The position numbers and the translations under genes were made by a program. A stretch of DNA of 64,000 nt. Origin: Isoetes taiwanensis. Lineage: Eukaryota; Streptophyta; Lycopodiopsida; Isoetales; Isoetaceae. The number at the start of each line of letters is the position of its first letter. Positions within the stretch are counted from its first letter, which is position 1. The DNA is taken from positions 9,976,572-10,040,571 of the forward strand of contig JAJEKV010000005.1 in NCBI GenBank assembly GCA_021234155.1. The letters are read 5' to 3'. A model generated the notes under the pieces. That model ran no database searches. It worked only from the letters and a program-made list of their open reading frames with translations, and was not told the origin of the DNA. Below, piece after piece: positions 3,540 to 64,000 of the stretch.

Positions 3540-4415
3540 TCAAGGTCCAATGTAACACATATATTAATACATATTCTCTTCGCATGCCACCAACTACAAT
3601 TAAATCCAACTCAAATCTATCTATCTAGCCTTGTTCCCAACCCTGCAGTTCTGCTAGTTTCTTTTAGGTAACTTCAGGTTTATGGGCTTCTGGTGGCGCC
3701 GCTTACAACGCCGCCATAACTTCCCTTGCAGCGGCAGCTGGCCATTTTTGTGGAAACACCATTCCCACCATAGACGCCAGCCAGAGCTTCTCTTGCAGCA
3801 GCAACGGTAGCTTCCTTCGTGCAGCGGCCGGATTGAGCGGCCGGAACAAGGGCGTCTGCTTTTAACAGGGAATGGGCTGAATCTTTGTCTCTGCACAAAC
3901 AAGGAATGTTTGAAATTTCTTTGATTCTTCAGGTAGCAGCCGACGAACAAACAAGGAATGGGCTGAGGTAAGCTTGAAGAATGGGCATAAACAAGGAATG
4001 TTTCGCATAAATAGGGAATGGACTGAAGCTTACATTATGGTAAGCTTGAAGAGCGGGATGTAAGAATGTAAGCATGTAGGCTACCATTCACGTGAAATTA
4101 TTATTACTTCTTGTTTTAACAGAAATCATCTACGCCATCAGAGTTCATCCATCACCAGGAGCTGTGATTTTTCATCAACGGGGTAGCCCTAAGTCTAGCG
4201 CTGTTAAGAAAACCTTGCATATGCATGTGAATATAAGCTTGAGAACCTTGCTTGAAAAATGTAAGCTACAACCGCTGCTAGAAATGGCATGCAAAATCCC
4301 TCTCTGCTTCGCTTGCGAAATCCCTCTGTGCTTCGCTTCCAAGAGTCAACGGCGAAAAACAAGACCGAAATTTCCATCAAAGGCCGGTTTATGTTTGGTA
4401 GCCGGCCGAATTTTG
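3540..4415. other. Intergenic stretch, no gene recognised
   Basis: No credible coding region. Short iterated motifs are present: AAACAAGGAATG recurs between about 3898 and 4005, and GTAAGCTTGAAGA recurs near 3968 and 4040. The stretch 3695-3850 is rich in GCCGC/GGCGGC triplets. Confidence 0.4.
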
Positions 4416-4493
4416 GGGTTTCCGACCGGTAAACCGGCAGGTGGCGCCGCCGCTTGTGGCAGCGCTGCCTGCCGGTTTACCGACCGGAAACCC
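4416..4493. repeat. 26-bp-arm hairpin
   Basis: Arms 4416-4441 and 4468-4493 are inverted copies (right arm begins CCTGCCGGTTTACCGACCGG) with two mismatches, around a 26-nt loop that is itself GC-rich with GGCGC/GCGCT. Could be a MITE-like foldback or an RNA hairpin. Confidence 0.8.
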
Positions 4494-4722
4494 TTCAATC
4501 CGGTCGATTACCTAGCACTTATACTCCTCCCTTTTCCTATTGCCCTCTTATGCATGTCAGGTTTTGCGCCTTTTTGAGGACAATGTGTCTATGTTTTCCT
4601 ACATTGGGGTTCTTAAACCTTCAATCGGGCTGGTTACCTAGCACTTATACTCCTCCCTTTTCCCCTTGCCCTTGCATCTTCTTGAGGACAATGTGCCTAG
4701 GCTTCTCTACATTGGGGTTCTT
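4488..4722. repeat. Tandem duplication (about 110-125 bp units)
   Basis: Two units share CCTAGCACTTATACTCCTCC (near 4511 and 4637), then TTGAGGACAATGTG followed by CTACATTGGGGTTCTT (near 4574-4613 and 4682-4722). No function inferred. Confidence 0.8.
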
Positions 4723-5340
4723 TGTGACAATCAGAGCTCACTCTTCCAGCCATAACTCTCTTATTCAGACGAGTTATGGGAGGTGCCGCCACAATTCAGA
4801 AACTAGACTTCGAGACGGTTCCAGTGAACTAAATATCGCCTCAATCGGAGCACTGTTGTGGAGATATAGCTAATTGAAGTTCAGATTCTATTTATAGAAG
4901 TCTCTGCGACTTTAGCCTTCTTTGGCCTTGTCTTTGCCTTTGCGTTTGCGTTTGCCTTTGCCGTTTGTTCCCAACCATGATATATACTAGCTCTATATGA
5001 TTTCGCCCAATGCATAATCATATTGGCCACTCCCACGAGCTCATTGTTAGATATTAACCTTATATCAGTTAAGTTCTTAGATTGCAGGTTAGCCTCTGGC
5101 ATGCATCTAGGCTTTGTAGACGGTTGCAAACAATGGGCATAGTTTGTTCCTAGGTAGTACCTGCTGTCTAATGGTCATGCTAGTAATTGCGTGCTTTAGC
5201 TCAGATTAGAGTGCAGACTACAGCTTCCTAAGTTTTGTGCCTTGTTTGGTAGACATATGATGGCATGTCTGTTGTTCCTACCTAAAAAATGAGGGCTTGT
5301 AGGCCTGCTACCGTTTAACTGTGTGCTGGATTATAGGAGA

Positions 5341-5635
5341 TTGGATTATAGGAGATTGGTGCACTCTTATTTTTTGGAATAAAGCCTATTCTATTATTTA
5401 TTGGAATATAGCCTATTCTATTTAGGGTGCACGACCAAACTACCCCTATGAGTTTATGTAATTACCAAAATGCCCTTATGAGTCTTAAATTTACCAAAAT
5501 GCCCCTACACACCTACAATACACAAGGGCATTTTGGTAATTTTGAAACTCATAAGGGTATTTTGGTAATTACACAAACTCATAGGGGTATTTTGGTAGTT
5601 TTCCCTTCTATTTATTGGATTATAGGAGATTGGTG
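5341..5635. mobile_element. Foldback MITE flanked by a 21-bp direct repeat
   Basis: A 21-bp repeat starting TTGGATTATAGGAGATTGGT lies at 5341-5361 and 5615-5635. Between them, about 5437-5510 is an inverted copy of about 5525-5602. The arms share ACTCATAAGGG and ATTTTGGTAATTAC, and each is built from iterated TTTTGGTA/ACTCATA motifs. The right boundary abuts a Ty1/copia coding fragment. No coding capacity, so probably a non-autonomous foldback element. Confidence 0.7.
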
Positions 5636-6445
5636 ACCCTAAAAGAGTATCAACTCCTAGCAATATCAAGAGCAGTATCTCATAATGCTCATCTTGCTAC
5701 CTTGTTGAGAAATGTTACCAAATCAAAAGATCATGCCATAAGAATGGTAAGGACAGAATTTGAACAGGGTAAATTTCATGATGAAGATGGGATAACTCAG
5801 AAGTGCTTTATGCTGGAAAATACAAAAAGAACAAAGATAAAAAGAAAATAGGGCCATGTTTTAATTGTGATGGTTATGGACATCTTAAGGCAGACTATCC
5901 AAACGCTGGGAAAGAAATAGTGTGCTATAATTGTAAAGGCAAGGATCACATGGCTGCAAGCTGTCCAAGTCCTAAGTGTCCTAGAGGGAAAGGGAAGGAT
6001 AAACCTACGGCAACCAAGAAAGGACATGAAATTAGGAGGAGAGCTGCAAGAAGGAATCCTACAGTAAACCTAACTGAAGAAAATCGTGCTGAAGCAGATG
6101 AACACGATGGAGATGCAGAGGTAAGAATTTCTGAAATGAACTCCTTAATTAGGAATAGAATTGACCATAATGCATTGATACTAGATTCTGGAGCTGTAAA
6201 GACAGTAGCTGCCAGTTCCAACATCCTTAAAAGCTGCAAAGGAAGAAAGGGAGGACATGTCCAATTAGGAAATGGGGAGCTTCAGGAGATAGAAGACGTA
6301 GGTGTATTAGAATTGTTTGATTTATAAGGGAAAAAGATACAATTAGAGAATGTGCTTTGTGTGCCAGGCCTAGTAAGAAATTTGATATCTGTTTCTCAAC
6401 TAGTGGACCTAGGTTATAAGGTCCTGTTTGAAAAATTGCAATAAC
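5632..6445 (+). pseudogene. Ty1/copia gag-protease fragment
   Basis: The fragment opens with a gag-like helical segment (LKEYQLLAISRAVSHNAHLA, from about 5640). A continuous frame from 5803 to 6327 then carries two zinc knuckles. The first, CFNCDGYGHLKADY, has its last Cys replaced by Tyr; the second, CYNCKGKDHMAASC, is canonical CX2CX4HX4C. The aspartic protease motif follows as ILDSGAVKTVAAS (normally LDSGAS). After a stop near 6325 the same region reads NVLCVPGLVRNLISVSQLVD, the pre-integrase segment typical of copia Pol, and then ends near 6440. Integrase, RT, RNase H and LTRs are missing. A truncated retrotransposon relic. Confidence 0.85.
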
Positions 6446-17128: not shown

Positions 17129-18945
17129 TTAACTATACATCTTCAATACATCTTCTGCTTCCCTTTCCCACCATCTGGAAAATTCAAAGACCACTAAATA
17201 TATCAGACTCATAATCATTGCAAAACAACCTGCAATTGTGAGCAGATAAGATACAAGTTTACAGTAACCTTTAGATTGCTCGGCAACAAATTTCTCAAAT
17301 TGCAATCTATCATGCTCATGAAGTAGATATATTCCAGGTTCTGGCTTGTAAGTTAGACAAGCCAAAGCTATGACAGAATCTAATGATATCACTATGTCGT
17401 CTAACAAGTCAAATGTGTACCAACGGGTGAAAGCATGCTAGGGTGTACCATCTAAAGTACTTTTTAGGGAGTGCGAAACTACCCAAAAAAGTACCCAACA
17501 CTGGGTACTGGGAACTTGCATAAATGCCACAATAAATAATAAGTTTGAGAGTTAATTCATTTATTTTAGTCTCTAATAGTATTGTTATCCTCTAGTACTA
17601 TAGATTGGCATGTTACTGACCTTCAATTCAAAAAATTTCGATCGATTTTAATGGAAAGAAAAAACAGAAAGTACCAGTTTTAAAAGTACCCAGTGTAGGT
17701 ACTTTTGAGGGTTCCAAAAGTGGTACACCGTAGCATGCTTTTACCCCAACATTTTCTTCTAGACTTATGCTCATTATACCATGCCAAGTTAAGTTCTACC
17801 AAATAGGATGGTCTGGAACTTAGATCAATTGCTTCCCTACTTTCCTTCCAGCCCCTACCAACTTTCCTTCGAATACTCAGAATCCTTCCCAAATACCAAG
17901 TTCTCTTTAATAATTTCTGCTTTGCACTAACTATCCGCCTTTTGTTGCTCGGGCCTACCTCAAAGAACACTCGCACAATCGATCCAATGACAAGAGCAAA
18001 GGGTGGGTGCATTGATCCGCTTTGTTCTTTTCGGGTCCAATAGAATATGAGTTTTAACTTTGGTCAGTCTATCCTTCGAGAGCCAAGGATTCCCATTAAG
18101 TTGACTAACTAAAGTGGCCTTGTAGACTTCTTTATTGTCTATCTTCACAAGTCTTTCAACTTTCATTTGGTTTGGGTGCTCTGCCTCATCCACCATGGCA
18201 TCAAGTGTATGTCTTAACTCCATCACTGCTGCTATCTCCTCAATGTTTTTTGCAGCCAAGCCTTCAGCACCCTCATTTTCAATCTCCACTTCAACTCGAT
18301 CAGACTCATCTTCAAACTCGATTGTATCTAATTGCTGGAGGTAGTTCTTGTTAAATAGTCTTCATGCTTCCAAGGACAATTCCACCATATGTCAGCTCCT
18401 GTCTTTTCACAACAAATGCCAACTCTCAAACATATCCCCTGTGCTTCTTTCATCCCTTCCTTTAAAGCATGCACAATTTTATCTACATTGTCTACCATGC
18501 TGTAATCTCCTAGATCACAAATGATTTCCTTACCATCAAGTCCAACCTTCTTTTCTAAAACTTGCCATATGTTTTCCTGCTTCAAATGGGTAGCAGGGAA
18601 CAACAATTTCCCAAGAGCCTGAAACTCTGCCACTCTATTCAAAGCACTTGTTGTTTCAAGCAAGTCTGCACCTGTATATGACCTTTCATTTTGGATCATG
18701 CCGCCCACTTTACTAAAAAAAATTTCACAAGCATCTGAACCCGTGCAACTCAAGGGAAGAGAAATGTCATTGCATTTTTCACTGAAATAATTTATCAACA
18801 TCACAGCAAAATGACATGATAACTGTATGTCAAGAAAAGTCTCACGGCTTATAAAGTTCATCTTCAAAGTGTGTGTTGGATGCCTAATTATCCACAGCCT
18901 CCACAACCTTTGAGATTGCAACAAACCAAACAAAAATCTTAGCAA
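17129..18945 (-). pseudogene. Transposon-type protein gene, interrupted by a MITE
   Basis: Minus-strand segments: 18945-18328 (LSCTGSDACEIFFSKVGGMI and a following NERSYTGADLLE stretch), 18289-17960 (acidic helix, KVKTHILLDPKRT), 18012-17747 (KLLKRTWYLGRILSIRRKVG) and 17424-17129 (IVISLDSVIALACLTY, then a hydrophobic segment LTIAGCFAMIMSLIYLVV). The GSDACEIFFS part resembles a region I know from eukaryotic transposon-encoded proteins where a polypeptide segregates Gly-Ser-Asp/Glu and FFS motifs. Frames shift between the first segments. The last two segments are one frame broken by the MITE at 17425-17746. Function not assigned beyond transposon-like. Confidence 0.5.
17425..17746 (-). mobile_element. 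MITE, copy 1, TIRs shared with the 9.7-kb element
   Basis: Left end GGGTGAAAGCATGCTAGGGT at 17425; right end is the inverted GGGTAAAAGCATGCTACGGT ending at 17746. CAAC flanks both sides (17421-17424 and 17747-17750), a 4-bp target duplication. Removing the element plus one CAAC joins two minus-strand reading frames exactly in phase (326 bp removed, offsets agree). A second copy, inverted relative to this one, is at 40285-40532. No coding capacity. Confidence 0.9.
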
Positions 18946-40077: not shown

Positions 40078-41735
40078 GGCTGTATGAGAGTTGTTTTGGC
40101 AGGATGTAGCCGACGGGGCAAGCATTCACCAGTAGTATCGGGGTCCGGCAGGGCTGCTCCCTCTCACCAACACTTTTTGGCCTCTACATTGATCAGTTAG
40201 AGCCATGGCTTACTGAGCATGGGGGGGATGGCATACAACTTTTGCACCAGGTCATCCGCCAGCTCATCTATGCGGATGATGTTGGGGTAAAAGCATGCTA
40301 CGGTGTACCACTTTTGGAACCCTCAAAAGTACCTACACTGGGTACTTTTAAAACTGGTACTTTCTGTTTTTTCTTTCCATTAAAATCAATCGAAATTTTT
40401 TGAATTGAAGGTCAATAATGTTTATTGCGACATTTATGCAAGTTCCCAAGATCAGTCTTTGGGTACTTTTTCCGGTAGTTTTGCACTCCCTAAAAAGTAC
40501 TTTAGATGGTACACCCTAGCATGCTTTCACCCGCTGACCTTCCGCCCACACCCCGTGCTATGCGCCTCATCTAGATGCCCTAGACACATTTTGTCGCTAC
40601 GCACATGCGCCAAGCGAATCCGCCAAGACCGTGGTGGTCCTCGATCCTCTTCACGCCACCCCACGCCCTCCTGCACTCACATATCGGGGGATGGCCCTAT
40701 GGAGGTCACGCCACCTACAAGTACCTAGGGGTGGAGTTCCCCTCCTCGCTCTGTTGGGAGCCCATCCGCTTCTGGGTGACAGGCCGAAAGCTTTATGCCA
40801 TGCGTATCAACAAATCCACCGTGCAGAGCTCTATGATTGGGGCCATCACACATCTCTGTTTGCACCGGGTCGAGCCCGTCCTTCCAGACGGGTCGGTTTG
40901 GGGCCCTGGCCGCCTCTTTGGCGACTGGAATGACTTGGAGCAAAAGTGTGTAAGGCATTTTTGCACGGGCACGCACTGGGTGAAACCTTCACCCCTATCG
41001 ATTCTCACGGCAGAAACTGATTCTTTGCCGCTTCGCTGGCAGCCCTTGATAGACACATCTTCTATTTTCGTAAAGTGGTTAATATGGGTGATGCTCGCCC
41101 CCGCACTGGGCTTACGCCGGGCAATGGGGCCGCAGCCGCTCCGTGGCCCGCTGGAGGGTAAGAGAGATCGCTGGTTCGCCCGGATGGAACGCGTCAGGAG
41201 CACAGTACATGCAGGACATTGCACGCGCAAAGCCTGGACACAGAGGCCGATCGTGATTGATCATGGAGTACCTAGACGCTTGCTTCCTTGGCAAGATCTG
41301 GGACCCCGGCGCTCTAGAGCAGGTCAAAACGGCCCATTACAAGGAGCACATCAACCCCATGTTAGCTCGGGGCCCGCAGCTCTACCTGCGTTCCCAGCCC
41401 CCCGAAAAGCGCAAGTGCAGACTCATTGCCTCCATTCGCGACAAAGTGCCCACCATCTTCGTGATCGAGATCGGCGTGGATTGGGAGCCCCCCGCCAGAC
41501 AGCACTGGCCGCTCTTTGCCAAACGGGTGCCATTGAGGATGAGTCTCACACTTTCCCAGAGTTGCCCAAAGATTCACCAGATCCGGCCGATATTCTCCTT
41601 TAGTAATGGGCCGGACTTGCCCCTACATTTGTTGATGAACACGCCGTTAGTACGTGCTCTGTGGTCGTACATTCAGGAGGTACTGGATCTGCGAGCTCAC
41701 CTTTGCCCCCGCCTGGCTGCCCGCTGATCAGGCAC
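40078..41735 (+). pseudogene. Non-LTR retrotransposon (LINE) reverse transcriptase fragment
   Basis: The RT palm motifs are GVRQGCSLSPTLFGLYIDQL (about 40140-40200) and LIYADDV (about 40262-40282), the catalytic YADD. After a MITE insertion, LDALDTFCRYAH and AKTVVVL follow in shifted frame near 40570-40640. Thumb-region segments YKYLGVEFPSSLCWEP and SVWGPGRL follow, and the frame from 40605 runs to 41603. The C-terminal CQTGAIEDESHTF near 41540 fits the zinc-binding CCHC tail of LINE ORF2. Upstream endonuclease and early RT are missing. Markedly GC-richer than its surroundings. Frameshifts and stops make it dead. Confidence 0.8.
40285..40532 (+). mobile_element. MITE, copy 2, inside the LINE
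   Basis: The left end GGGTAAAAGCATGCTACGGT starts at 40285, and the inverted right end GGGTGAAAGCATGCTAGGGT ends at 40532. It is the inverted counterpart of 17425-17746, with an internal deletion relative to it (248 versus 322 bp). Flanks are GTTG (40281-40284) and GCTG (40533-40536), a 4-bp duplication with one change. Inserted right behind the YADD motif of the LINE. Confidence 0.9.
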
Positions 41736-44030: not shown

Positions 44031-44153
44031 ACATACACATGTGTCAACGATGAATGTAAGCATAAAACATGGTAAAATCAAACTCTTTCTAAGTTCTAGA
44101 TGGCATAAGTTGAATCTAGACTTAGGTTTTTGTATGTAAAAGGACTCTCTTTT

Positions 44154-44174
44154 GGGTAAAAGCATGCTAGGGTG
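44154..44174 (+). repeat. Left TIR of the 9.7-kb transposon
   Basis: Begins GGGTAAAAGCATGCTAGGGT; same end as both MITEs. Confidence 0.85.
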
Positions 44175-44465
44175 TCATACATTAGTTCTAAATTCATGTA
44201 CTATTTTGCACTAGAAACCCATTTTTTTATGTAATTTTGAATGTATGGTAGGAGGCCACGTGCTTGTCGTTATATATTTAAAAAAGGAATATATTTGATT
44301 GTTTGTCATCATGACATGAAGTGGCCGACGGTTGTTGCGAAATTTTGGGCACAATCACTGGATTCCCTCCGATCCAAGCAAATTCCCTCCAATCCATCCG
44401 AAGCAAGCAAATTCCCTCCAATTTACGGTCTAAGAATCTAAAACAAAGAAAAGAATTTTAAATTC

Positions 44466-47400
44466 TTGCCGGATCTTTGCATGCATATCAGTTTTCATAG
44501 TAGTAGTAGTGGCATGGCACAAGAAAATCAAAGTATAACCGGTGATTCTGAAATCGACAAAGGGAAGCAGAAAATGGTTGAACAAGATACTCTAAATGAC
44601 ATGCTGAATGAAGTGACAGAGAGTGATACTGTCAACAGTGAGAATAGCAGATCATATTCCAGGTATTTCACCAAAAAAATCAGGAAAAGAGCAGAAAAGG
44701 TTGTTGAATGCTTTAGAAATGAAGCCGCCTCTATCTCCGGTGAAAGAGAGGTATTGGTTTCCGTGGATCTTGCAAGATAACAGGCTCTTGGGGTTGTTTA
44801 AACCTCGTGATTGGGCTACCTTCGTAGCGGTGGTGAAACATTCATTGTTACAAAATCTCAAAGATGGATTAGAAGAGGTTAAATCTTCTAATAGCAGTGA
44901 CAAGTTGGCAGCCAAGCACTCTGTTTTATCCATGATTGTTGGGAAAAATGGGGAATTGAAGCAAAAAGGAGTTGCTTCAAAAATGTTGAACTGCCATCCT
45001 CGAAATTTGTCATACGCTGCAGGCAGAAGAAAGAGAATGAAAATTGCAGGTCCAAGTATATGGGCATTAGCAGGCAGAAAGAGAAGATCTGATTGTTTGG
45101 ACGAAGACACAAAGCAATTAGTCATCCAATTTTGGTTAAACAACACCAAGGTTTCACCTAAATACAGGGATGTAAGAAAGAAAAGGCATCAGGCAATCCA
45201 GTTTCTTGATATACCACAGGTATTTCATTCTTTACTTTGTGAAATGCTTCTGATCCCTCATGTATATGCTCATTTTTATTGGAATTTATAGTATCTTCTT
45301 TGTTTTGATGTATGAATGCTTTCTAATGACTGATCTATTATTTATGTATTCACTTTTACTTACTTTTACATATGCAATCACCTTTATTGGTTTGCTTACA
45401 TTTATTGACCATGTATATTACACTAAATCTTCCTTTCTTATTTATGCAGTGACTCCAAAATTCTTAAGCAATGTACAGATTAGATATTTGCATAATATTG
45501 TATGTTATACATGTCTATAGAGTACATATCTTGTACTCGACTTTCGATAGTGCCTATGGACTTCAAGAATCTACTCTAGAACATTAATATGCTCTAGGGT
45601 ACAAGAATGTACCCACATCAAGCATTTTATCCTTACACACGATTTAATGTACATGTGTAATGTATATTCCGTTGTCCTTATGTATATTGTAAGTACATTC
45701 CGAACATTCGAAAGTACATTCTCGAAAGTACATATGAGTGCATATGAGTACATATGAATGCATACGAGTACATCCGAAAGTACATATTAGTACATTATGA
45801 GTACATGTTAGTACATTTTGACTCATGATGTACTCAATTGCACATACAAAATCTTTTATTAACTATGATGATTTGAATGCACAGCCGAAATGCACTTAAC
45901 TTTGTGGAGCAACACCCGTGAGGCAGACATTGGCATCGATTGTTCAATACCTCAAACCTGATTGTGTAAGGAAGCTAAAGGAAAGAAACACATGTTGTTG
46001 TGTCAAGCATGAGCAAGCAGAGAACTTCAGGAAGGCATTTAATTCTATGAGGGCTAAGCTTCACATCAATTGTAGCTGCAATTGTGAAGTTTGTGCTGCT
46101 AACAAAAATGATGGAATTTGTCAGGCTCACAAGCATACATACTGTAATGTCAGCACTCTATGGAGGAGTATGGTTTGTCCAAAACAGGATAGTGACGAGT
46201 GGCACAAATTAAATTGTATTACAAGTGATTGCAAGAACTGTGGTAAGAAGAACATTAGCTTATGTCCAAAAGAAACTGAAAATGACATTGAAAGTAAAGT
46301 CAATTGGCAAATATACTCTTATGTGGATGAGAAGTCTAAAAAAGGAGTCTCAAGAAGGCTCAGATTGGTGGAGAAGACAACAAATGCACCTGTAATGCTG
46401 GATGCCATGTTTGGTCACATGAAGACATTTATCCATCACAACTTTGCAGCTCACTGGCAAAGCAAGGAATTCAGAAGATGTGTTCAAAACCTGAGAGATG
46501 ATTCAGTGATATCAGTGGTTGATTTTGCGTAAAAATTATACATTGAAGCCTTTCAAAGAGGTTCAGTCGTAACATTGGAATGCGTACCAAGTTACTATAA
46601 TGGTACAGATTACCATGTCAAGGTAAATGGCATCTTGAAGAAGATCGCTCACTTGTATATTTCGATGACAGAAATCATGATACACATTTTGTACAACATG
46701 CATTTAAGCTTCATCTAAAATGGCTGAAAGAGAATGGTGGATCTCATGTACAAAGATCATATTGTGTGGTCCGATGGTCAGGCCGCACAATACAAGTCCG
46801 TAAGAAATTCATATTTCATTACCGTGTACTATGTTGAATATGGCATTCGCTTACAATGGAACTACTTTGGGCATGGAAAAGGTGAACATGATGGAGAGTC
46901 CGCCAAGGCCAAGGTGTACTTGCAACAACAACATTCTTGGTGAAACATGGAACGTAGATTAGAGGTGCACATGATGCTTGTGTTGTCTTGAGGAGCAAGC
47001 AATCTAATGTTGACAGAGTATACCGGGAAGTGAAGGAGTCGATATTGATAGAACCAATGCATTGATGTGCAACCTCTTCCCCGGTATTCAAATTGCATGC
47101 TATAGCTTCTATAAGTCCAACTCGACCCCACCTTAGTAATGGTGAGACCATTATCTTGCTTCTGCAATGCTTGCATTAACTTTGAATGGGATGCTTGTGA
47201 GTCCATTTCATTCTGTGGGAAGTGGCAATTAAAGAAGCTAGTACCCCGAGTAAGTACTCATTGTGAAGTAGAGAATGAGGAAACCGCTTTTTTGCAAATG
47301 AAAATGAAGAGCTAGAAGATCTAGTACAGGTAGGTGATATGTTTGCTTCTTTTGCTGCACTAGGAAATGAAGAAAATGTGCCATACTATATCCTTCTTTG

Positions 47401-47701
47401 CAAGAAAATAAAATTTGTTTTGCAGGAAAATGTTATTGACGATTACAAAAATTATCACCATACAGTGAAACAAATCATATCCGCCAGATTACTATCAAAA
47501 TTGCCCGGTTGTCACCACAAGTATAAGTTATTGGATGACAAAGAAGTTCTTGTACCGCAGAGTCTCATTATTGGAGCAAAGTTTGCAATGCCAAAAGTAA
47601 ATCATAAGGTGAAGGGTGCTTCTGCAGCTTATGCATTGTCTACTGATGTGCATGAGATGCTACTGGGAAGTCTGCCTGAAATGCTACATGATCTGGAATA
47701 G
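44466..47701 (+). pseudogene. DDE-like transposase of the 9.7-kb element
   Basis: The N-terminus is MAQENQSITGDSEIDKGKQK (from 44514), with a frame change near 44660-44760. Next comes FPWILQDNRLLGLFKPRDWA and a KMLNCHPRNLSYAAGRRKRM helix, to a GT donor at 45220 (intron to about 45884). Exon 2 has a Cys-rich part (CSCNCEVC, CITSDCKNCGKK) and then WQSKEFRRCVQNLRDD. The catalytic-like blocks are VVDFA-stop-NYTLKPFKEV (46518-46560), FVQHAFKLHLKWL, IVWSDGQAAQYKS (about 46764) and YFGHGKGEHDGESAKAK (46863-46910). The C-terminus is VPYYILLCKKI (about 47380). I recognise the DFAENY/SDGxxxQFKS/HGKGEHDG signature from transposase-like proteins of animals and seed-free plants. A stop replaces the Glu of DFAENY, with another at 46569 and frameshifts near 45915, 46610 and 46735. 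Confidence 0.75.
45500..45840. repeat. AGTACAT-rich array in the transposase intron
   Basis: More than ten AGTACAT/TGTACAT words with spacers such as ATGAGTGCATATGAGTACAT near 45717-45820. A counterpart rich in TGTACT lies at 51570-51785 near the other end of the transposon. Confidence 0.75.
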
Positions 47702-47869
47702 CTTGAACAGATTATATGTTGGACAGATTATATGTTGGAGAGAAATCTGAAAAGAGAAAAGTGCAGGAGTAACATGATTTATATTACATTGTAATTGAGT
47801 ACATCAACTTATTTCAAAACATGTTTCTTGTTATTGATAACTTTATAGAATATATCAACTTCTTTTATG

Positions 47870-48190
47870 CCTAACTATTACATCCTGTGGTGGCTGAAAT
47901 CTCATAGGTATTGCATCCATTCTCCTAAGATTTCCGGAGCGCCATATAATGTTAGGACTAGCTGTGGCAGAGGCCACTGCTACTTCTCTTGCAATTGGAA
48001 GCCCACTCCAGCCCTCACGCAGCGCAGTTGACTCGTGCGCACTTGGCAACTGATTCCTTCCCCAAGGATCAGGATCATAGATCTTGTGAATTGCCCAAAG
48101 TATTGTTAGCATCTCATCCCCGGTGCTTCGCTCTTCGATCCGCTCGACTGCTCCCATAATCCGGTAGGTCGGTAAGGAATCTTGCTTCAT
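47870..48190 (-). CDS. C-terminal segment of the minus-strand transposon gene
   Basis: The frame reads YRIMGAVERIEERSTGDEML, then WAIHKIYDPDPWGRNQLPSA and IPMRFQPPQDVIV, ending near 47870. It has no internal stop. Not recognised. Position suggests the last exon(s) of the protease/HAD gene or a separate small gene; converges on the transposase, whose stop lies about 170 bp away. Confidence 0.4.
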
Positions 48191-48489
48191 ACATTAAGCC
48201 ACAAGAGAATGGTACATCCGAACATATTCCCGCCTTCAAATCCCTAAAGTAGAAGGTGGTTCATCCGTTCAACCTCTCGCTCCCATGTACATGTACAAGT
48301 TCCTTTTGTTCCGTTCAACCTCTGCCCATGTATAAATTCCTCTTCAATTTCATTTTCCTCAACTTCTAATCCAATAACAAAAGTTAAAAATTATTAGCAT
48401 TTTAAATCTAAAACTTCCTCAACCTTAAATATTAATAATAGATATAATTTAACAAGTACTCAAAAGAGTTATGAAAGCAAATCAACATC

Positions 48490-49140
48490 AAGAAAAGTTA
48501 CAAGAAAAAGTATTCAGCTTGATCAAAGGCATTGTACATAGGGCCTTTATTCTGTTCATATCTTCGCCGTATTCATCCACTATAGTCTTGATGATAATGT
48601 CACCATATATGTCCCAAGAGTCATCCAACTTATGCTCCTTTATGTAATTGGTAAAATCTGGTGCATATTTCAACCCTACCAACCAATCAAATAAGAAGGA
48701 CAGCTGGTTGTCGCGTTCTATCAAAGGTGTCCATAGTGGCACACAAACATAACTTTCTTTGTTGAAAAGAGCTTTGTGTGCTTAGACTCAAACACACCAC
48801 AGAGTCGACCATTGTATTTAGGATATTCAATGACAATACTATCCATAGGTACTACTTGAGGAGTTACACCAACTGAATTTGTGTAAGGAAGTCCCCAACA
48901 TCTCTCTTTTCCATAAACATGTTTAAATTTTGGGATGCCATCTTCATAGAGCTTGTCCAAAATTGATGTTATGATATCTAAGGTAAGAGTTGACCATATG
49001 GCCAAATCCCAATGAAAGGAGGCATATTGAAGCATTGCTTTCATTGTTGGTCCGCAGTAGAAAACTCCATGTTCTCAGAATTATGGGCTTGTAAGAGGAA
49101 ATATTCATTCCCTGAGTTCTATAAAAGTAACCCGTAACAC
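48490..49140 (-). CDS. FCP1/HAD-phosphatase-like domain of the transposon
   Basis: Minus-strand segments: SYKPIILR (about 49090), then MLQYASFHWDLAIWSTLTLD and ITSILDKLYEDGIPKFKHVY (49044-48930), then MDSIVIEYPKYNGRLCGVFE (about 48850). Next is NQLSFLFDWLVGLKYAPDFT and YIKEHKLDDSWDIYGD (about 48710-48600). The layout (xxKPxxLRPG, ...WDLAIWST..., ...FLxxLxxxxDxxxYIxEH) is that of FCP1/NLI-interacting-factor phosphatases of the HAD fold. The nucleophile DxDxT loop was not found, and the DDSP motif seems replaced, so catalysis is doubtful. No stop within the two main segments, though a frame change joins them. The family call is inference. Confidence 0.45.
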
Positions 49141-49524
49141 CTTGGATCTCAAATATTAGGAGTCCCGTAAGGAAGCAAAATATAATTAACATACAAGAGC
49201 ACTAGGATTGCAACCATTCATTGATTACATTATCAAGATTACATAAAAAGCCAAATGGCTTAGTGTTGTTTCCAATAAGAAAAAAGCCAATTGGCCTCAT
49301 TTGATAAAGAGTTATGAAAGAAGTTAAGCACTACCATGCTTCTCTTGCGAGGTGCTAGTAGTGCCTGTTTCATTGAGATGGCTCTTATAATTAATCATAG
49401 CCTTAATGAGCACATGTCTCCCCGGATCGCATATACTCCGTGATCAAACCAATCTGAAGAGAACTGAAAGAATGAAAACAAATAGTTTTCAGAATTAAAT
49501 ATTATATAAAAAGCAATTGTGTAT

Positions 49525-50175
49525 ATGTTATCTCACCATGCTCTTAGCTTGCACCTGGGCATCCACAAAGGCTTGCATATAAGCCATGACATAAAGACCA
49601 CAAGAAGCCAGGTCACCTTGTTGTGGAACCTCAGGTCTAATTTCTTTTCAGACCAATTCTTTACATAAATATCAATCTTACGAGAACTGGAATTAGTCAA
49701 TGCTGTAATGATATCTTTATGAAGCCTGCAATAGAAAATAACATCAGAACTATGAAGCATTACACTGAATTAATAGTGAGTGCACTTACATCATAACCAT
49801 CCTCGTGTCGACCTGCACATTCTTTAGCGAGTTCAGAATAAGGATAGCTGGAGAAGACAAAGGGGTGCTACTACAGTTCTTGGCCTTATCTAAAACAATG
49901 ATGACTAGTGCATGGTGCATAGGATCCTCAATCTGGATTGGAATCATAATATACTGGCATTTGCTCAATATGATTCCCTGAAGCCCTTTTTGAACTACAT
50001 ACCAATCCAGATCGTACCATCGGGTTGCATCGATGACGCTTTGTTAAAGGTCGCTCAGAGGGCTAAGAAATTCTCTGAAGGGAAGAAAAAAAATGCATCA
50101 CGCCATTTGTCAGGCATAATGCTAATCAGATACCTATTCACAAAGAAAGTGAGGTTAGATGTTCAGTAGTTAACC
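49525..50175 (-). CDS. Ulp1-type (C48) SUMO/ubiquitin-like protease domain of the transposon
   Basis: Minus-strand exon about 50130-49800 reads PDKWRDAFFFLPF and WYDLDWYVVQKG, then CQYIMIPIQIEDPMHHALVI and SSPAILILNSLKNVQVDTR, followed by a GTAAG donor. The next exon (49730-49535) includes VPQQGDLASCGLYVMAYM. In C48 peptidases the triad is His in HWxLxxI (here MHHALVII), Asp in LxxxDS (here LILNSL, with Asn) and Cys after a conserved Gln (VPQQ...SCG, both present). Several plant DNA transposons of the MULE group carry such a gene; here it lies antisense to the transposase. One TAA or shift occurs near 50045. Activity uncertain because of Asn. Confidence 0.7.
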
Positions 50176-50439
50176 ATAATGCCTTCCAAATAGTTACCTT
50201 CCAAATATATCTATATGCCTGTTGGACATGTGCCTGTCTCTGCAAAGACCTTCCACACAATATTTAGTCACTTTGATTAGAGGCTTTTGCTGGAAAGGGT
50301 AGCATGGAACTATTTTCAACAAGCTCTCCAGGTCTCTGTAAAACAGACTTGCATTATTGAGAGACAAATGAATTGCAACTACAACAGAATCTTACTTACT
50401 CTCCTGTGCTGTCATCTCCAGATCGAGCACTTTCAGATG

Positions 50440-51490
50440 ATGTTTGGCTTCTAGTCCTGCAGAAGTCATCATAAAATTGTTCAGATATTACACTTCAAAA
50501 GCTTCAATTAACATAATAAATATTCACCTTTTTGTTGAAGTTGTATTTTGCATGCACTCCTTCCTTTTTCTTGTCTGCTTCTCCTGTTTAACAACCTTGG
50601 TCTCCTCAACCTTGGTTTCCTCTATGTCATCAACCTTAGTGGCCTCAACCTTTGTTTCCTCAACCTTTGTTTCCTCAACCCTGGTTTCCTCCACTGCCAC
50701 ATCATCCTTTTGGATCTCTTGTACCTCCACCATCTCTTCCTCTCCCTTAATATGGCTACTATCCTCTATCTTTTCAATGGTTGCCTGAACAAAGGCTGCA
50801 GAAGATTCACCAATTTCCAACACTTCTGCATAAATTAGTCACCAAAGTCAATCAGTATTGTGGATCCTAATTTTAAGTTAATGGTATACCTGTTGAATCA
50901 TCAGTCAACAGCATTTGAATTTCCTGCTGAAATGATGGCATTGGCTTAATAGGTTTCCAAATTGGTTTCTCTGGAAATTTGTATTGTGAAGAAAGCCCTG
51001 CAGACTCTGGAACTTTATAATTGAAGAAGAAAAACTTGAAGAACCTATAAAAATGGTGTTTAATAATTGCAAAGACACACAAGCAAAAAGAAGATGCAAC
51101 ATACCCGCAGATAACTACATCGCCTCGCTTTAACTTTTCAACCTCTGCTGCATAATCCACAAATGTTCGAATCGGTATGCTCGTGGCTATATGGAATTCC
51201 AAGTGACATATCAAGCTCATATGACATGAAAATTAAATTCCAGGGATTGTAAATCAATCAAATGTGATATTTACTTACATGTATCCGAGGACTTCACTGG
51301 TACCTCAAGCTCTTCCTCAAAAGACTTTACAAGGTTTACAGGTGATGCCCATGTAGAAGTATTTCCCAAATCCTCCTGACCTTCTGTCAAATCCAATACC
51401 TTGGAAGAAAGTGTTGTTGGCTTCTTGCTGTCATCTACAATAAAGAGTAGAAAAAGACTTGAGATAAGAAAAGGAATATGCATGATTAAC
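50440..51490 (-). CDS. Acidic and linker exons of the minus-strand transposon gene
   Basis: Segments with splice-like borders: TLSSKVLDLTEGQEDLGNTS and SFEEELEVPVKSSDT (51440-51285); IPIRTFVDYAAEVEKLKRGD (51170-51105); PESAGLSSQYKFPEKPIWKP and PSFQQEIQMLLTDDSTG (51015-50890). An acidic repeat follows, with VEETKVEETKVEATKV (about 50685-50620), then a basic KQEKQTRKRKE and RSQTSSESARSGDDSTGE (to about 50405). No folded domain recognised. Probably the linker between zinc finger and protease of one multi-exon protein. Confidence 0.45.
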
Positions 51491-51569
51491 AAGACTACAA
51501 TATCATACCCTTTTCTGGTTTCCTTATGCTACCAAAATCACCTGCATCAGTCAAACATTGAGTATATCA

Positions 51570-51790
51570 GATCATCAACTAAGAAATGTATTCTCAATGT
51601 ACTCTACAAGTACAGTCAATGAAAAAATTAACTGACAATGTACTCCAATGTATCCATCTGATAATGTACTCTGATTTATCATGTAAATGTATCCAATGTA
51701 CTGTTGAAATGTACTGAATGTACTCTGAAATGCATTGTTCTGAAGTACAATCAATGTAAACAAAGCTAGCTGATATTGTACTTTGCCCAC
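51570..51790. repeat. TGTACT-rich array
   Basis: Iterated AATGTACT, AATGTATCC and TGTACTGAATGTACTC, in an intron of the minus-strand gene. Inverted counterpart of the AGTACA-rich array at 45500-45840. Confidence 0.75.
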
Positions 51791-52120
51791 TGATGAGTCA
51801 TGAAGTATTCAATAATAACTCAAAATGTAATTTTGACAGCAACAATAGCAATGTATCTGTCAATTGCTACACTATACAGTTCTCAATAACAAGTAATTAG
51901 CTACCTACATTACTGAGCTGATGAGCACATGAAATTAAAAACTCTCATCTTTAAAAATAAGTAGTCTATTTGGCAGATTATACATGACTGAACCCACATT
52001 ATCCAACTACAAAAACTATGTATCTAAATACTCAATGTAAATGCAAGCCTAAAACCTTCATGCAAAAAAGAATCTAACTATTAAAATAAGAAAAGAAATT
52101 GTAAATTAAATGTACATCTA

Positions 52121-53356
52121 CTAACCTTTTGTTGCAAGCAGTCCAAGTGCTACAGGCAAATTGCTATTCCATGAGCAGTCAGGATCAACACATGAAATCT
52201 TTGTGCTAGCAAGATAGGATATACACAGCAGACAATAAGGGTGTCTGCAGGGTGCCAGAACCACTGGATTCACACCAAAAGATTGCTCACAATATGTACA
52301 TGAAGAAAAAGGCTGAACAATAATCTGATCTGCAAGAATTGTAGACTGGAGAGGAGGGGGCTGTAAAGTAAGGATCGAGGAATGTTCTAAAAATTCCCTG
52401 AGTTCCATAATTTTTTTGTCTCCTGCCTCAGCTGAGCTCATATCAACAGATGTAGCTTCAATCTTTGCATCTACATGTTTCAATTCGGTAAGATTCATGT
52501 CAATATGTTTCTGGAGCTCAGCCTGATCCTGCATTCTTGATTCCTTTTGCTCGATAGCATCCTCAACTTTCCATTTTAGGTGCTGAAATCTTATGGCACT
52601 TTCAGATGTTTGGTCCAGTTTTGATTGTTGATCCTCCAATGCTGCCATTTTTGCTTCAACATTCCTCTCTGCTTCCTGGACCAACCTGATATAAACTGCT
52701 CTCTCCCCTTCCTTGTGCTTCAATGTATCAAGGATCTCTTGCCTTCTTTCCTTTAACTCAGTTAATTTCTTGCTTAAAGATGTTTTCACAATAGATCTGC
52801 TGTCTAAGAAGTTACTGAAAACTTCTAATTGCTCCTTTGTGTAACTCTTAGCTGAAGTTCTTGGGGCTTTTGCATTTGCATTGCTAGATTTCACTGTCAC
52901 CACCTCACTAGATAGATCCGAATCCTTTTGCTTCGATCCGCCCATGCTTTGACATCTTCCCAAATCCCACTTCGCACCTTTCGTGATGCAATGCAAATGC
53001 CCTTATGGCATGAGAGGGACATAGTGATTCATAACATCTTTTCTTCCAAAAGCAAACTCATACCATTTGCAGAATTCTTCTGTCCACTTCATATCAATTC
53101 TGTCATCCTTATAGCCATACCTGCTTGGTGCTTCATCACCCCATATCTCTCTTACCATAGCATCATACCGCTTTCGTAAACATCACAAAAAATTCAGGTT
53201 AATCCGAGCTGTCTTCTGTAAAAACCCGGTATCATCGGTGGTAAAATTTCCCTTTGGCATGCGAACTTGAAGCTTTCTTATTTGTTTGGAGGCTTTCCTG
53301 GTCCTTGGAGACTTTCTTGAACCCTTGATTGGCGTCTTCTTTGGGGTCTTTGCCAT
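52121..53356 (-). pseudogene. Basic, coiled-coil, RING-like zinc-finger protein of the transposon
   Basis: One frame runs from ATG at 53356 to 52121 with two stops (TGA at 53185, TAA at 53005). The N-terminus is highly basic (MAKTPKKTPIKGSRKSPRTR), nuclear-type. RYDAMVREIWGDEAPSRYGY and WTEEFCKWYEFAFGRKDVMN follow. A long coiled coil spans about 52850-52430 (LTELKERRQEILDTLKHKEG and on). The C-terminus has a zinc-binding pattern CTYC, CRHPYCLLC, CVDPDC (about 52310-52180), RING-like but with only seven clear ligands. A RING beside a SUMO-type protease would suggest ubiquitin/SUMO manipulation, but that is inference. Likely the 5' part of the protease gene or its neighbour. Confidence 0.6.
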
Positions 53357-53850
53357 GTTTACAGTACCTGCAAAATGAACAAAGCAACAAATTTGATTTC
53401 ATAAGATAAATTTGCCCGAAATATTTGAACATCAGACCGTAAACCAAACGCATTGTTTATATTCATGTTATACCTACATCGATTTAGCTTGAAAAATACC
53501 GCTTTTCAATTTTTAATCCATAGAACCAGTTCTGTTACTTCTTGAATTCATTTTCGGACTGAAATCACAGAAAATTAAAACTACAAAATAAAGAAAACAA
53601 AACTTACAGGGCAGATCACACGGATATGCAGTGTTCCGAGCCGATTCAAACGTTCTTAGCAGTGCCAATTTTCGGAAAACAAACCAATTCTTGCTCCACT
53701 CGGTTAGCCAAGAAACAGGGGGAACAAAATGGAGGGAATTTTTGGTACACTCGAATAATGACATTTTCTTTAATGATGGCAATCAAAAACTTGCTATAAT
53801 TAAAATACATAACGTTATATGTAATGTATTCGAATGGCCCTTTTTTTTAT

Positions 53851-53871
53851 CACCCTAGCGTGCTTATACCC
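53851..53871 (-). repeat. Right TIR of the 9.7-kb transposon
   Basis: Inward reading GGGTATAAGCACGCTAGGGT; two differences from the left end in 21 bases. Confidence 0.85.
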
Positions 53872-53875
53872 TTTT

Positions 53876-62032: not shown

Positions 62033-63085
62033 TCAGCCAGTTGGCCAGTACACCTTGAGGGATGAACCATTGATTGGGTTATCAAATCGCTTCCCATCAA
62101 GGGTCTTCAGGAGATAGGTATGATTCCTTAACACCTCATCGATGACGTATGGTCCCTGCCAAATACTCTGAAATTTCTTGCGGTTATCTTCCTTGGGCTT
62201 GTACCATCGAAGGACTAATTGTCCATGCTGAAAATACTGCGTATGCTGAGACTTCTTGCTGAACATCCTTTGTTGCTGTTCTTTTCTGAATTTTTGTGCC
62301 AAATAGGCCATGTGCCTATCCTCGTCCAATTGCTCCAAAGCTAGCAACCTGTTCCTCAATTGGTCTTCTTGTGTGCCATGATGCTCTAAGGTTATCCTCA
62401 AAGACGGCAGCTCAATCTCTATAGGTAACACTGACTCCTTCCCATATACCAATTGGAAAGGTGTATATCCTGTAGCGTGTTTCTCATGAGTTCTATATGA
62501 CCATAATGCTGCTGATATATGAGAATGCCAATTTCCTTTGTGTTCTTCAATTGTCTTCCGCAATATCTGAATCATTTGTTTATTGGAGCTTTCTGCTTGC
62601 CCATTACATTGGGGATAATATGCAGCTGAAAACCTCTGCTTCAACTTTAGTTGCGAAACAAGATCTGCAACAACTTCGTTCATAAAATGGCTGCCTCTAT
62701 CGCTGACCAGTACCTGTGGAACTCCAAACCTGCACACAAGTTGGTGAAACACAAATGAACTAGTTACAAGCGATGGCGGATCCGGGTTGGCGCCTCCCAC
62801 CCACTTGGTAAAATAATCGGTAGCCATTATGACATATTGGTGACCTGCAGAAGAAGGGGGCAATGGGCCTATGAAATCTAATCCCCAAGTATGGAATGGC
62901 TCAATATGTGGGATGGTATCCAAGGGAGCAGAATTTAATCGCTTAGGGGCATACAACTGGCAAGCATGACATCGTTGGCAATAAGCATGCGCATCTCTAA
63001 AGACTGTTGGCCAATAATATCCAGCCCTAAGTATCCTCTTTGCTGTAGCATCTCCTGCAAAATGTCCCGCACAAACCCCTATGGT
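62033..63085 (-). CDS. Ty3/gypsy integrase
   Basis: Zinc-binding tail CQRCHACQL (about 62985-62955), preceded in another frame by HFAGDATAKRILRAGYYWP. The catalytic core has GLDFIGPLPPSS (first Asp), VLVSDRGSHF (second Asp) and NGQAESSNKQMIQILRKT (Glu). The C-terminus LVLRWYKPKEDNRKKFQSIW and VYWPTG ends at 62033. The core frame 62956-62033 is intact. A frameshift near 63085 separates it from RT/RNase H. Inserts retrotransposon cDNA into the host genome. No chromodomain seen. Domain order RT-RH-IN places it in Ty3/gypsy. Confidence 0.9.
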   Translation of the reverse strand, partial: TIGVCAGHFAGDATAKRILRAGYYWPTVFRDAHAYCQRCHACQLYAPKRLNSAPLDTIPHIEPFHTWGLDFIGPLPPSSAGHQYVIMATDYFTKWVGGANPDPPSLVTSSFVFHQLVCRFGVPQVLVSDRGSHFMNEVVADLVSQLKLKQRFSAAYYPQCNGQAESSNKQMIQILRKTIEEHKGNWHSHISAALWSYRTHEKHATGYTPFQLVYGKESVLPIEIELPSLRITLEHHGTQEDQLRNRLLALEQLDEDRHMAYLAQKFRKEQQQRMFSKKSQHTQYFQHGQLVLRWYKPKEDNRKKFQSIWQGPYVIDEVLRNHTYLLKTLDGKRFDNPINGSSLKVYWPTG

Positions 63086-64000
63086 GACATGACTCTAATA
63101 CCCAACCCTGTTCTTCTTCATTCAAACATCGCATAAGTGGGCCTGCTACACTCTTTCTACAAAGAATATCTTCCACCATGACATAATGATGCAATTCAGA
63201 TTTAAATTTTCTAAGATCGGACTTCGTGTATATAGTAGGCAGAGGAATATCATTAAGCAAATTAATATAAGGCAACATCCAAGAATTGTGCACAGAAATA
63301 TGATGTACTAATGGAGAAACATGCATATTATCTTCTTCCTCTAATTCCTGATTATCAAATTGAAATGCATATGGCAAATAAGAGCTAGGATTACTCTGAG
63401 CAGTAAGTAACTTCACGTGAAAATCAAATTGATGCAAGAACACCATCCACCTATGCATTTTGGCTTTTTTCAAAGTTTTACTATTAATGAGACTCATCGG
63501 GTTCCTCTTGGCAACCACCTTTGTATGCTGCTGCAAAAGAAGATGCTCATGCTTTTGAAAGCAAAACACCAAGGCTGCCGCATACTTTTCTAGTAAGGGA
63601 TATCTGGCCTCTATTGCACTCCATAATTTTCCGGAATAGCTAATAACTTTAAATTCTTTGCGCTCTTGCTTTTGGCATAGAGTAACACCGCAAGCCCACT
63701 CAGTAACGGCTAAGAATACTATGAAAGGCTGATCTAAATTTGGGATGCTCAAAACTCCTCTCTTCTTCATGAAGGTAATTACTGTATCAAAAGCTTGTTG
63801 GCACTCATCAGTCCACAGTATTGGCATGATTTTGCTATGTCCTTTTGCTAATTTTCCTACCCTGGTAAGCCTAGTAATAGGGGCCATAATATGGGAAAAA
63901 TGAGGAATGTGCACTCGCAAAAATGAACAAGTGCCTATTAATTTCCTTACCTCCTTAACAGTTTTTGGAATTGGCAGCTTGGTGATGACTTCTAGCTTCT
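63027..64000 (-). CDS. Ty3/gypsy reverse transcriptase end and RNase H (partial, runs off the window)
   Basis: The minus frame enters from the right edge with LEVITKLPIPKTVKEVRKLI and GTCSFLRVHIPHFSHIMAPI, the RT thumb/connection typical of gypsy Pol. The RNase H-like domain follows: FDTVITFMKKRGVLSIPNLD, VFLAVTEWACGVTLCQKQ, SYSGKLWSAIEARYPLLEKY. The linker leads to CRKSVAGPLMRCLN near 63130. The catalytic DAS block of RNase H reads as AVTEWACGV, lacking the first Asp, so RNase H may be inactive. The RT palm, protease and gag would lie to the right of this window. Confidence 0.88.
   Translation of the reverse strand, partial: KLEVITKLPIPKTVKEVRKLIGTCSFLRVHIPHFSHIMAPITRLTRVGKLAKGHSKIMPILWTDECQQAFDTVITFMKKRGVLSIPNLDQPFIVFLAVTEWACGVTLCQKQERKEFKVISYSGKLWSAIEARYPLLEKYAAALVFCFQKHEHLLLQQHTKVVAKRNPMSLINSKTLKKAKMHRWMVFLHQFDFHVKLLTAQSNPSSYLPYAFQFDNQELEEEDNMHVSPLVHHISVHNSWMLPYINLLNDIPLPTIYTKSDLRKFKSELHHYVMVEDILCRKSVAGPLMRCLNEEEQGWVLESCHHRGLCGTFCRRCYSKEDT

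Follow-up and report, generated by a model that had tools for sequence, protein, structure and literature searches.

In Ginger1, a DDE transposon, a Ulp1 domain lies at the C-terminus of the transposase (PMC2836005). CryptonF and CryptonS elements encode a C48 peptidase, which in some CryptonS is carried on an additional protein (PMC3212892). VANC proteins of the VANDAL elements bind fast-changing arrays of noncoding motifs and remove silencing (PMC10398659), and KIU elements have a VANC with an added Ulp1 domain (PMC13317346). The Sola2 elements of amoebozoa combine 4-bp target site duplications, 12-21-bp ends, and an 888-aa transposase with captured Fanzor1 passenger genes (PMC3627910). The element that we compare with them occupies positions 44154-53871 of a 64,000-nt window from contig JAJEKV010000005.1 of the lycophyte Isoetes taiwanensis (the window is the whole stretch of DNA that was analysed, and positions below count within it). 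It carries a transposase gene on the plus strand and, convergent with it, a minus-strand gene that includes a SENP-like C48 protease.

We consider it about 75% probable that this element belongs to a young, probably autonomous family of cut-and-paste DNA transposons with a maintained accessory protein. It resembles Ginger1 in being a DDE transposon with a Ulp1-type domain, but its protease comes from a second gene, read in the opposite direction, and is not joined to the transposase. CryptonF and CryptonS share the C48 peptidase but are tyrosine recombinase elements with no DDE transposase. VANDAL and KIU elements are likewise plant DNA transposons with a separate Ulp1-domain gene and with family-differing arrays of short motifs in noncoding parts. 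However, they are non-TIR Mutator-like elements, whereas the ends of the window element are inverted and pair at 19 of 21 bases; its transposase has no Pfam match above cut-off. Sola2 as described agrees in the lengths of its ends and duplications and in carrying passengers, but its passenger is Fanzor in place of a RING-protease-HAD gene. The element may be called Sola-like by analogy, and its transposase motifs presumably resemble those of Sola. A literature search covering titles and the beginnings of abstracts, with Repbase outside it, found no paper on a transposase paired with a protease and HAD gene. The parts of the element are as follows.

44150-44153, no strand: left copy of the target site duplication, TTTT (flank comparison).
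44154-53871, no strand: whole element, 9,718 bp (inverted ends, flanking 4-bp duplication, full-length copies elsewhere).
44154-44174, plus: left terminal inverted repeat, GGGTAAAAGCATGCTAGGGTG (end pairing, end-pattern search of the window).
44514-45219, plus: transposase exon 1, broken in the window copy, open in L012, L015, and L035.
45220-45884, plus: intron A with a GTAC array (array statistics; splice sites by eye).
45885-47701, plus: transposase exon 2, which holds the DDE core; frameshifted in the window copy, open in L029 and L035.
47858-48193, minus: C-terminal tail frame, matched in copy L031 too.
48491-49164, minus: FCP1/NIF-like HAD domain, catalytic aspartates replaced.
49324-49460, minus: C-terminal protease exon with stop; a possible in-phase donor (G/GTAG) before the stop is kept in L032.
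49541-50336, minus: SENP-like C48 protease exons (Pfam C48, SENP7 structure match, conservation in L032).
50390-51545, minus: exons and introns of the linker, with an acidic repeat of VEETK type.
51546-52123, minus: intron B with a GTAC array (array statistics; splice sites by eye).
52124-52957, minus: open frame encoding a RING-like finger at 52175-52303, C-x2-C..C-x-H-x2-C-x2-C..C-x4-C, and, as judged from the sequence by eye, a coiled coil.
53010-53356, minus: basic N-terminus, broken in the window copy.
53851-53871, minus: right terminal inverted repeat, 19/21 identical to the left (end pairing, end-pattern search of the window).
53872-53875, no strand: right copy of the target site duplication, TTTT (flank comparison).

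Inverted ends and a target duplication of fixed length, both expected of cut-and-paste DDE transposons, are present, and window positions 44154-53871 form a single DNA transposon that is bounded by 21-bp ends and flanked by 4-bp duplications. The matching ends claimed in the original prediction are indeed partners. With three mismatches allowed, the end pattern has six matches in the window and none in 100 shuffles; these six are both ends of the element and the ends of two miniature inverted-repeat transposable elements (MITEs). The large size and the two convergent genes raise the question of two separate elements, side by side or nested, with the ends drawn from different ones. The probability of this arrangement is negligible, and it is rejected, because full-length copies elsewhere share the same start and end bases while their flanks differ and their 4-bp duplications match, and because locus L032, which represents a sister family, repeats the entire layout. 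Neither outcome named as refuting the original prediction was observed: the same two ends delimit these full-length copies, and the retrieved copies have their minus-strand segments between the ends. The copies with their duplications, the L032 layout, and a genome-wide convergent pairing described below all uphold the original prediction of a single 9.7-kb DNA transposon with both gene sets.

The host genome (1,658,258,908 bases in 1,110 contigs) was searched with the first 301 bases of the element. Of the 230 candidates, 40 were scored, among them the left end of the window element itself, and these left ends match over 301/301 bases with 96-100% identity. Twenty of the other 39 were taken for full comparison, and L029 was examined additionally. 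The right end falls inside the retrieved stretch in 8 of the 20. With the window counted, the 4-bp duplication is perfect in eight of nine right-end copies and matches at 3 of 4 bases in L009. The perfect duplications all differ, and the AT-richness looked for in Sola/Sola2 is not clear among them (TTTT, TATG, CTAA, ATAT, and TAAA as against GGGA, GGAA, and GTCC). Five copies (L009, L011, L012, L014, and L028) align end to end with the window element, although the right end of L011 is without its last two bases. L015 and L016 have one internal deletion each, L022 has lost its middle, including most of the transposase, and in L017, L020, L023, and L027 both gene sets can be followed to the end of the retrieved stretch or close to it. 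The remaining copies are cut, nested, or extend past that stretch. The check through the element ends that had been proposed for full-length copies therefore finds both gene sets wholly or mostly present in at least 11 of the 20. Outside CNG contexts (6,176 of the 9,724 columns in an alignment of 12 copies), the divergence between copies is 0.4-2.4%, and that of the window copy from L009, L011, L012, L014, L016, and L023 is 0.4-0.8%. This low divergence shows that the family is young, and it has multiplied recently.

The plus-strand gene encodes a DDE-type transposase to which no Pfam family could be assigned. The predicted SDG..HGKGEHDG signature is located at 46767-46895, and the motifs of exon 2 start at 46515 (VVDFA), 46767 (WSDG), 46872 (HGKGEHDG), and 47151 (LSCFCNAC). 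An RNase H-like fold with three acidic residues is found, for which the basis in exon 2 includes the fold of the homologue P0001. No Pfam family exceeds its cut-off with the open 628-aa frame of L029 or with P0001-P0005, and solved-structure comparison with the transposase alignment gave nothing usable. The transposase would cut at the element ends and insert with a 4-bp stagger, a step that is well supported. The element is likely autonomous.

The state of the window copy could instead suggest a dead relic in which mutation has disrupted the frames. Relative to the majority of the 12 aligned copies, it has 61 frame-shifting indels and it contains many stops, and no copy with every frame of both genes open was seen among those examined. 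However, both transposase exons are open in L035 and exon 2 is open in L029, and 43 of the 61 indels fall no more than 3 nt from a CNG triplet, a zone that makes up 29% of the sequence. Across the 12 aligned copies of 44154-53871 from the genome, differences and small indels cluster at CAG and CTG. CNG triplets with two bases on either side hold 67% of the differences in 23% of the sequence, and differences are 6.7 times as frequent in these contexts as elsewhere, a ratio that is 0.4-1.7 in five sets of control triplets and 2.9 in CG. Similarly, at 223 of the 279 CWG sites at least one copy has an indel, compared with 26% of random places. Deamination was considered as the cause and rejected; C>T plus G>A amounts to 0.29 of the substitutions in CWG and 0.26 away from CNG, a spectrum that also argues against a relic. 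The published assembly is described as built from nanopore reads polished with racon and pilon (PMC8566536), and we infer that the CNG pattern resembles miscalled CHG-methylated DNA in a nanopore assembly. Because of this clustering and the near-identity of the copies elsewhere, the broken frames are probably in large part sequencing errors at CNG sites, and a relic is improbable.

The module order that was proposed for the minus strand is borne out, with the correction that the zinc finger belongs to the minus-strand gene itself. The C48 assignment stands, since the Pfam cut-off of 20.7 bits is passed by the domain in the read-through window protein (41.7 bits) and in L032 (44.2 bits); the E-value is 1.9e-9 for the read-through protein and 1.5e-10 for the domain alone. 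SENP7 is the best match among solved structures (E 0.006), followed by SENP5 and Ulp2 (E 0.14 and 0.2), and a SENP7-like subtype is suggested. The active site has its His (in HHALV, 49917-49903), oxyanion Gln, and catalytic Cys (in ASCG, 49608-49597), with VPQQ at 49629-49618. What does not hold is the canonical His-Asp-Cys triad of C48 and of SENP/Ulp proteases. The catalytic Asp is replaced by Asn (in ILNSL, 49839-49825) in the window family, L032, and L034. Papain-type triads use Asn, and a His-Asn-Cys protease may therefore be active.

The HAD-like fold that was also predicted is recovered most clearly outside the window. With a Pfam NIF cut-off of 21.8 bits, the sibling copy L033 scores above it (27.3 bits, E 3.3e-6) and the 12-copy majority scores at it (21.8 bits), but the window copy falls below (16.7 bits, E 0.006) and its catalytic aspartates are replaced. 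The DxD motif reads FEIQ in the window family, FDLQ in L032, and FDLN in L033, and the second motif is EYP in the window family where L030 has DDS. An upstream exon holding the missing aspartate motif was sought and rejected, as none of three minus-strand pattern matches in the 12-copy majority lies in a HAD context and the motif itself is altered in L032. Solved-structure comparison for the HAD part gave nothing usable, and its fold predicted from a single sequence (predicted local distance difference test, pLDDT, 41) was not used. The profile searches called for in the original prediction thus succeed for C48 and, in L033, for NIF, but not for the transposase. A second HAD/NIF piece (E 7.7e-5, motif NTLIIDDS) occurs together with a tail-like frame at L031:2-1278 on the plus strand. 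Both lie on the transposase strand, just upstream of the transposase, and are perhaps part of another family member.

The RING-like finger passes no Pfam RING cut-off (best 15.6 bits, 25.2 required), and its Cys/His spacing is kept in L032. The acidic VEETK-type linker repeats are encoded by 15-bp direct repeats at 50592-50706. The acceptor AG upstream of the HAD exon is present in 8 of the 12 aligned copies, while the window reads GG; together with the kept in-phase donor, this acceptor makes a single protease-HAD protein likely. We regard the coiled coil, RING-like finger, acidic linker, protease, and HAD domain as probably forming one protein. Protein searches with the minus-strand gene, a viral-contig scan, and an Rfam scan gave nothing usable.

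A comparison of five families (the window family; L031 and L032, pooled by eye; L030; L033; and L034) bears on how long the two genes have travelled together. The L032 family has its own ends, an ATGT duplication, and a transposase that is 71% identical to that of the window, and its protease, coiled-coil/RING, and HAD parts occur in the window's order and strand. The amino acid identity of the coiled-coil/RING part between the two is 51%. The protease and coiled-coil/RING parts are present in four of the five families; in L030, other sequence breaks in before the corresponding position is reached. The HAD part is also present in four of five; none was found in L034 between the transposase and protease (oriented 3620-5720). 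L033 and L034 carry the minus-strand gene even though their transposases are merely 51-53% identical. The duplication of L033 allows more than one reading, CAAG being the one in which the two sides share the last C, and the search for a matching right end was unsuccessful in L034 and L030.

The pairing also holds across the genome. From the 113 of 9,828 transposase candidates and 139 of 1,625 coiled-coil/RING candidates that were scored, 113 merged transposase loci were compared with 120 merged coiled-coil/RING loci. At least 31 of the 113 transposase loci form a convergent pair within 8 kb, where 0.03 would be expected by chance. The pairs are mostly ~4.5 kb apart, and one pair has the wrong arrangement. 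This count is a lower bound, and the other 82 loci are not evidence of a missing partner gene. These results show that the second, convergent gene has been co-inherited with the transposase in several families.

Host gene pieces might have been caught once (Pack-type transduplication) and then carried along as a passenger without function. Capture of host pieces by plant elements, Ulp1 included, is described in PMC13317346, the HAD active site is lost in the window family, and the recent copies have too few changes for any measurable constraint. Between families, however, the ratio of nonsynonymous to synonymous substitution rates (dN/dS) for the window and L032 is 0.13 for the C-terminal part of the protease, 0.14 for the coiled-coil/RING part, 0.16-0.17 for the transposase, and 0.31 for the HAD part; dS is 1.1-2.8 for these parts and saturated for the remaining parts of the protease, which makes the values approximate. 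The third codon position is the most variable one in exons of the transposase, the protease, and the coiled coil, a pattern that two introns lack. This bias is slight in the acidic linker, and in the HAD part position 1 is nearly as variable as position 3. The constraint and the codon-position bias make a plain passenger highly improbable, as do the persistence of the gene in L033 and L034 and the genome-wide pairing. Comparison of the window family with L032 shows that the minus-strand protein sequence is under purifying selection.

Two introns of the element contain arrays of the motif GTAC, a feature in common with VANDAL and KIU. In the window there are 16 in intron A (45220-45883; 2.7 expected) and 10 in intron B (1.9 expected), numbers that none of 500 shuffles reaches. 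Intron A is also enriched in L030 (11, 2.5 expected), L033 (16, 2.6 expected), L032 (8, 3.0 expected; 3/500 shuffles), and L034 (6, 1.6 expected; 3/500), as is intron B in L032 (9, 2.5 expected), L033 (17, 2.3 expected), and weakly L034 (4, 1.5 expected; 23/500). Elsewhere in the window element the enrichment is mild (24, 13.7 expected), and beyond the element the count for the window stays inside the shuffle range (125 observed, 104 expected, shuffle maximum 134). Introns A and B are only 42-50% identical between the window family and L032, and the arrays are kept in both, with different commonest letters flanking GTAC. The motif is also dense in the two MITEs (9 and 7, with 1.4 and 0.9 expected), which are one family in mutually opposite orientation.

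17425-17746, no strand: 322-bp MITE with the ends of the element, duplication CAAC/CAAC, 9 GTAC motifs.
40285-40532, no strand: second MITE of this type, 248 bp, flanked by GTTG/GCTG, 7 GTAC motifs.

Two further open frames in the window were labelled tentatively by eye: one at 62033-63094 on the minus strand resembles a Ty3-type integrase, and one at 40584-41603 on the plus strand resembles the tail of a LINE-type reverse transcriptase.

The maintained minus-strand protein may act as an accessory factor. In the mechanism that we propose, it would bind or oligomerise through its coiled coil and RING-like finger, and its SENP-like protease, with the His-Asn-Cys triad, would remove SUMO-type modifiers. 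The HAD part would be a phosphatase-like fold whose catalytic aspartates have been lost in the window family, and the GTAC arrays in the two introns would be docking sites of an element protein. Because these arrays are like VANC targets and KIU has a Ulp1 domain, the likeliest accessory role would be to counter host silencing at the element; otherwise, the protein could deconjugate the transposase or repair factors. A stronger form of this analogy is that a superfamily that is not Mutator-like has independently evolved the VANDAL/KIU strategy in a lycophyte, with a dedicated Ulp-type protease gene, fused in this case with a RING-like finger and a HAD fold, that recognises family-specific intronic GTAC arrays and lifts silencing. 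We put this forward tentatively and think it on balance unlikely.

As the main alternative, it is quite possible, though short of probable, that the protein works in the transposition reaction and not against silencing, by deconjugating the transposase or end-joining proteins or by processing the transpososome. A role in transposition or repair has been proposed for the Ulp1 or OTU domains joined to Ginger1 transposases (PMC2836005), and the GTAC density of two MITEs, which should need cis sites alone for movement, would fit. On the other hand, the protease is a separate gene here and the GTAC arrays are intronic, far from the ends.

CNG errors in nanopore plant assemblies may make live transposon genes look dead, and in the present assembly they may conceal further intact ones outside this element. 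Ulp-type proteases have been reported in Mutator-like elements, Ginger1, and Cryptons. The Isoetes element is a clean case, in which a separate protease gene is common to several families of different age, is constrained, and is linked to motif arrays. If the anti-silencing role is true, then self-encoded control of silencing would be a recurrent strategy of plant transposons that reaches the lycophytes.

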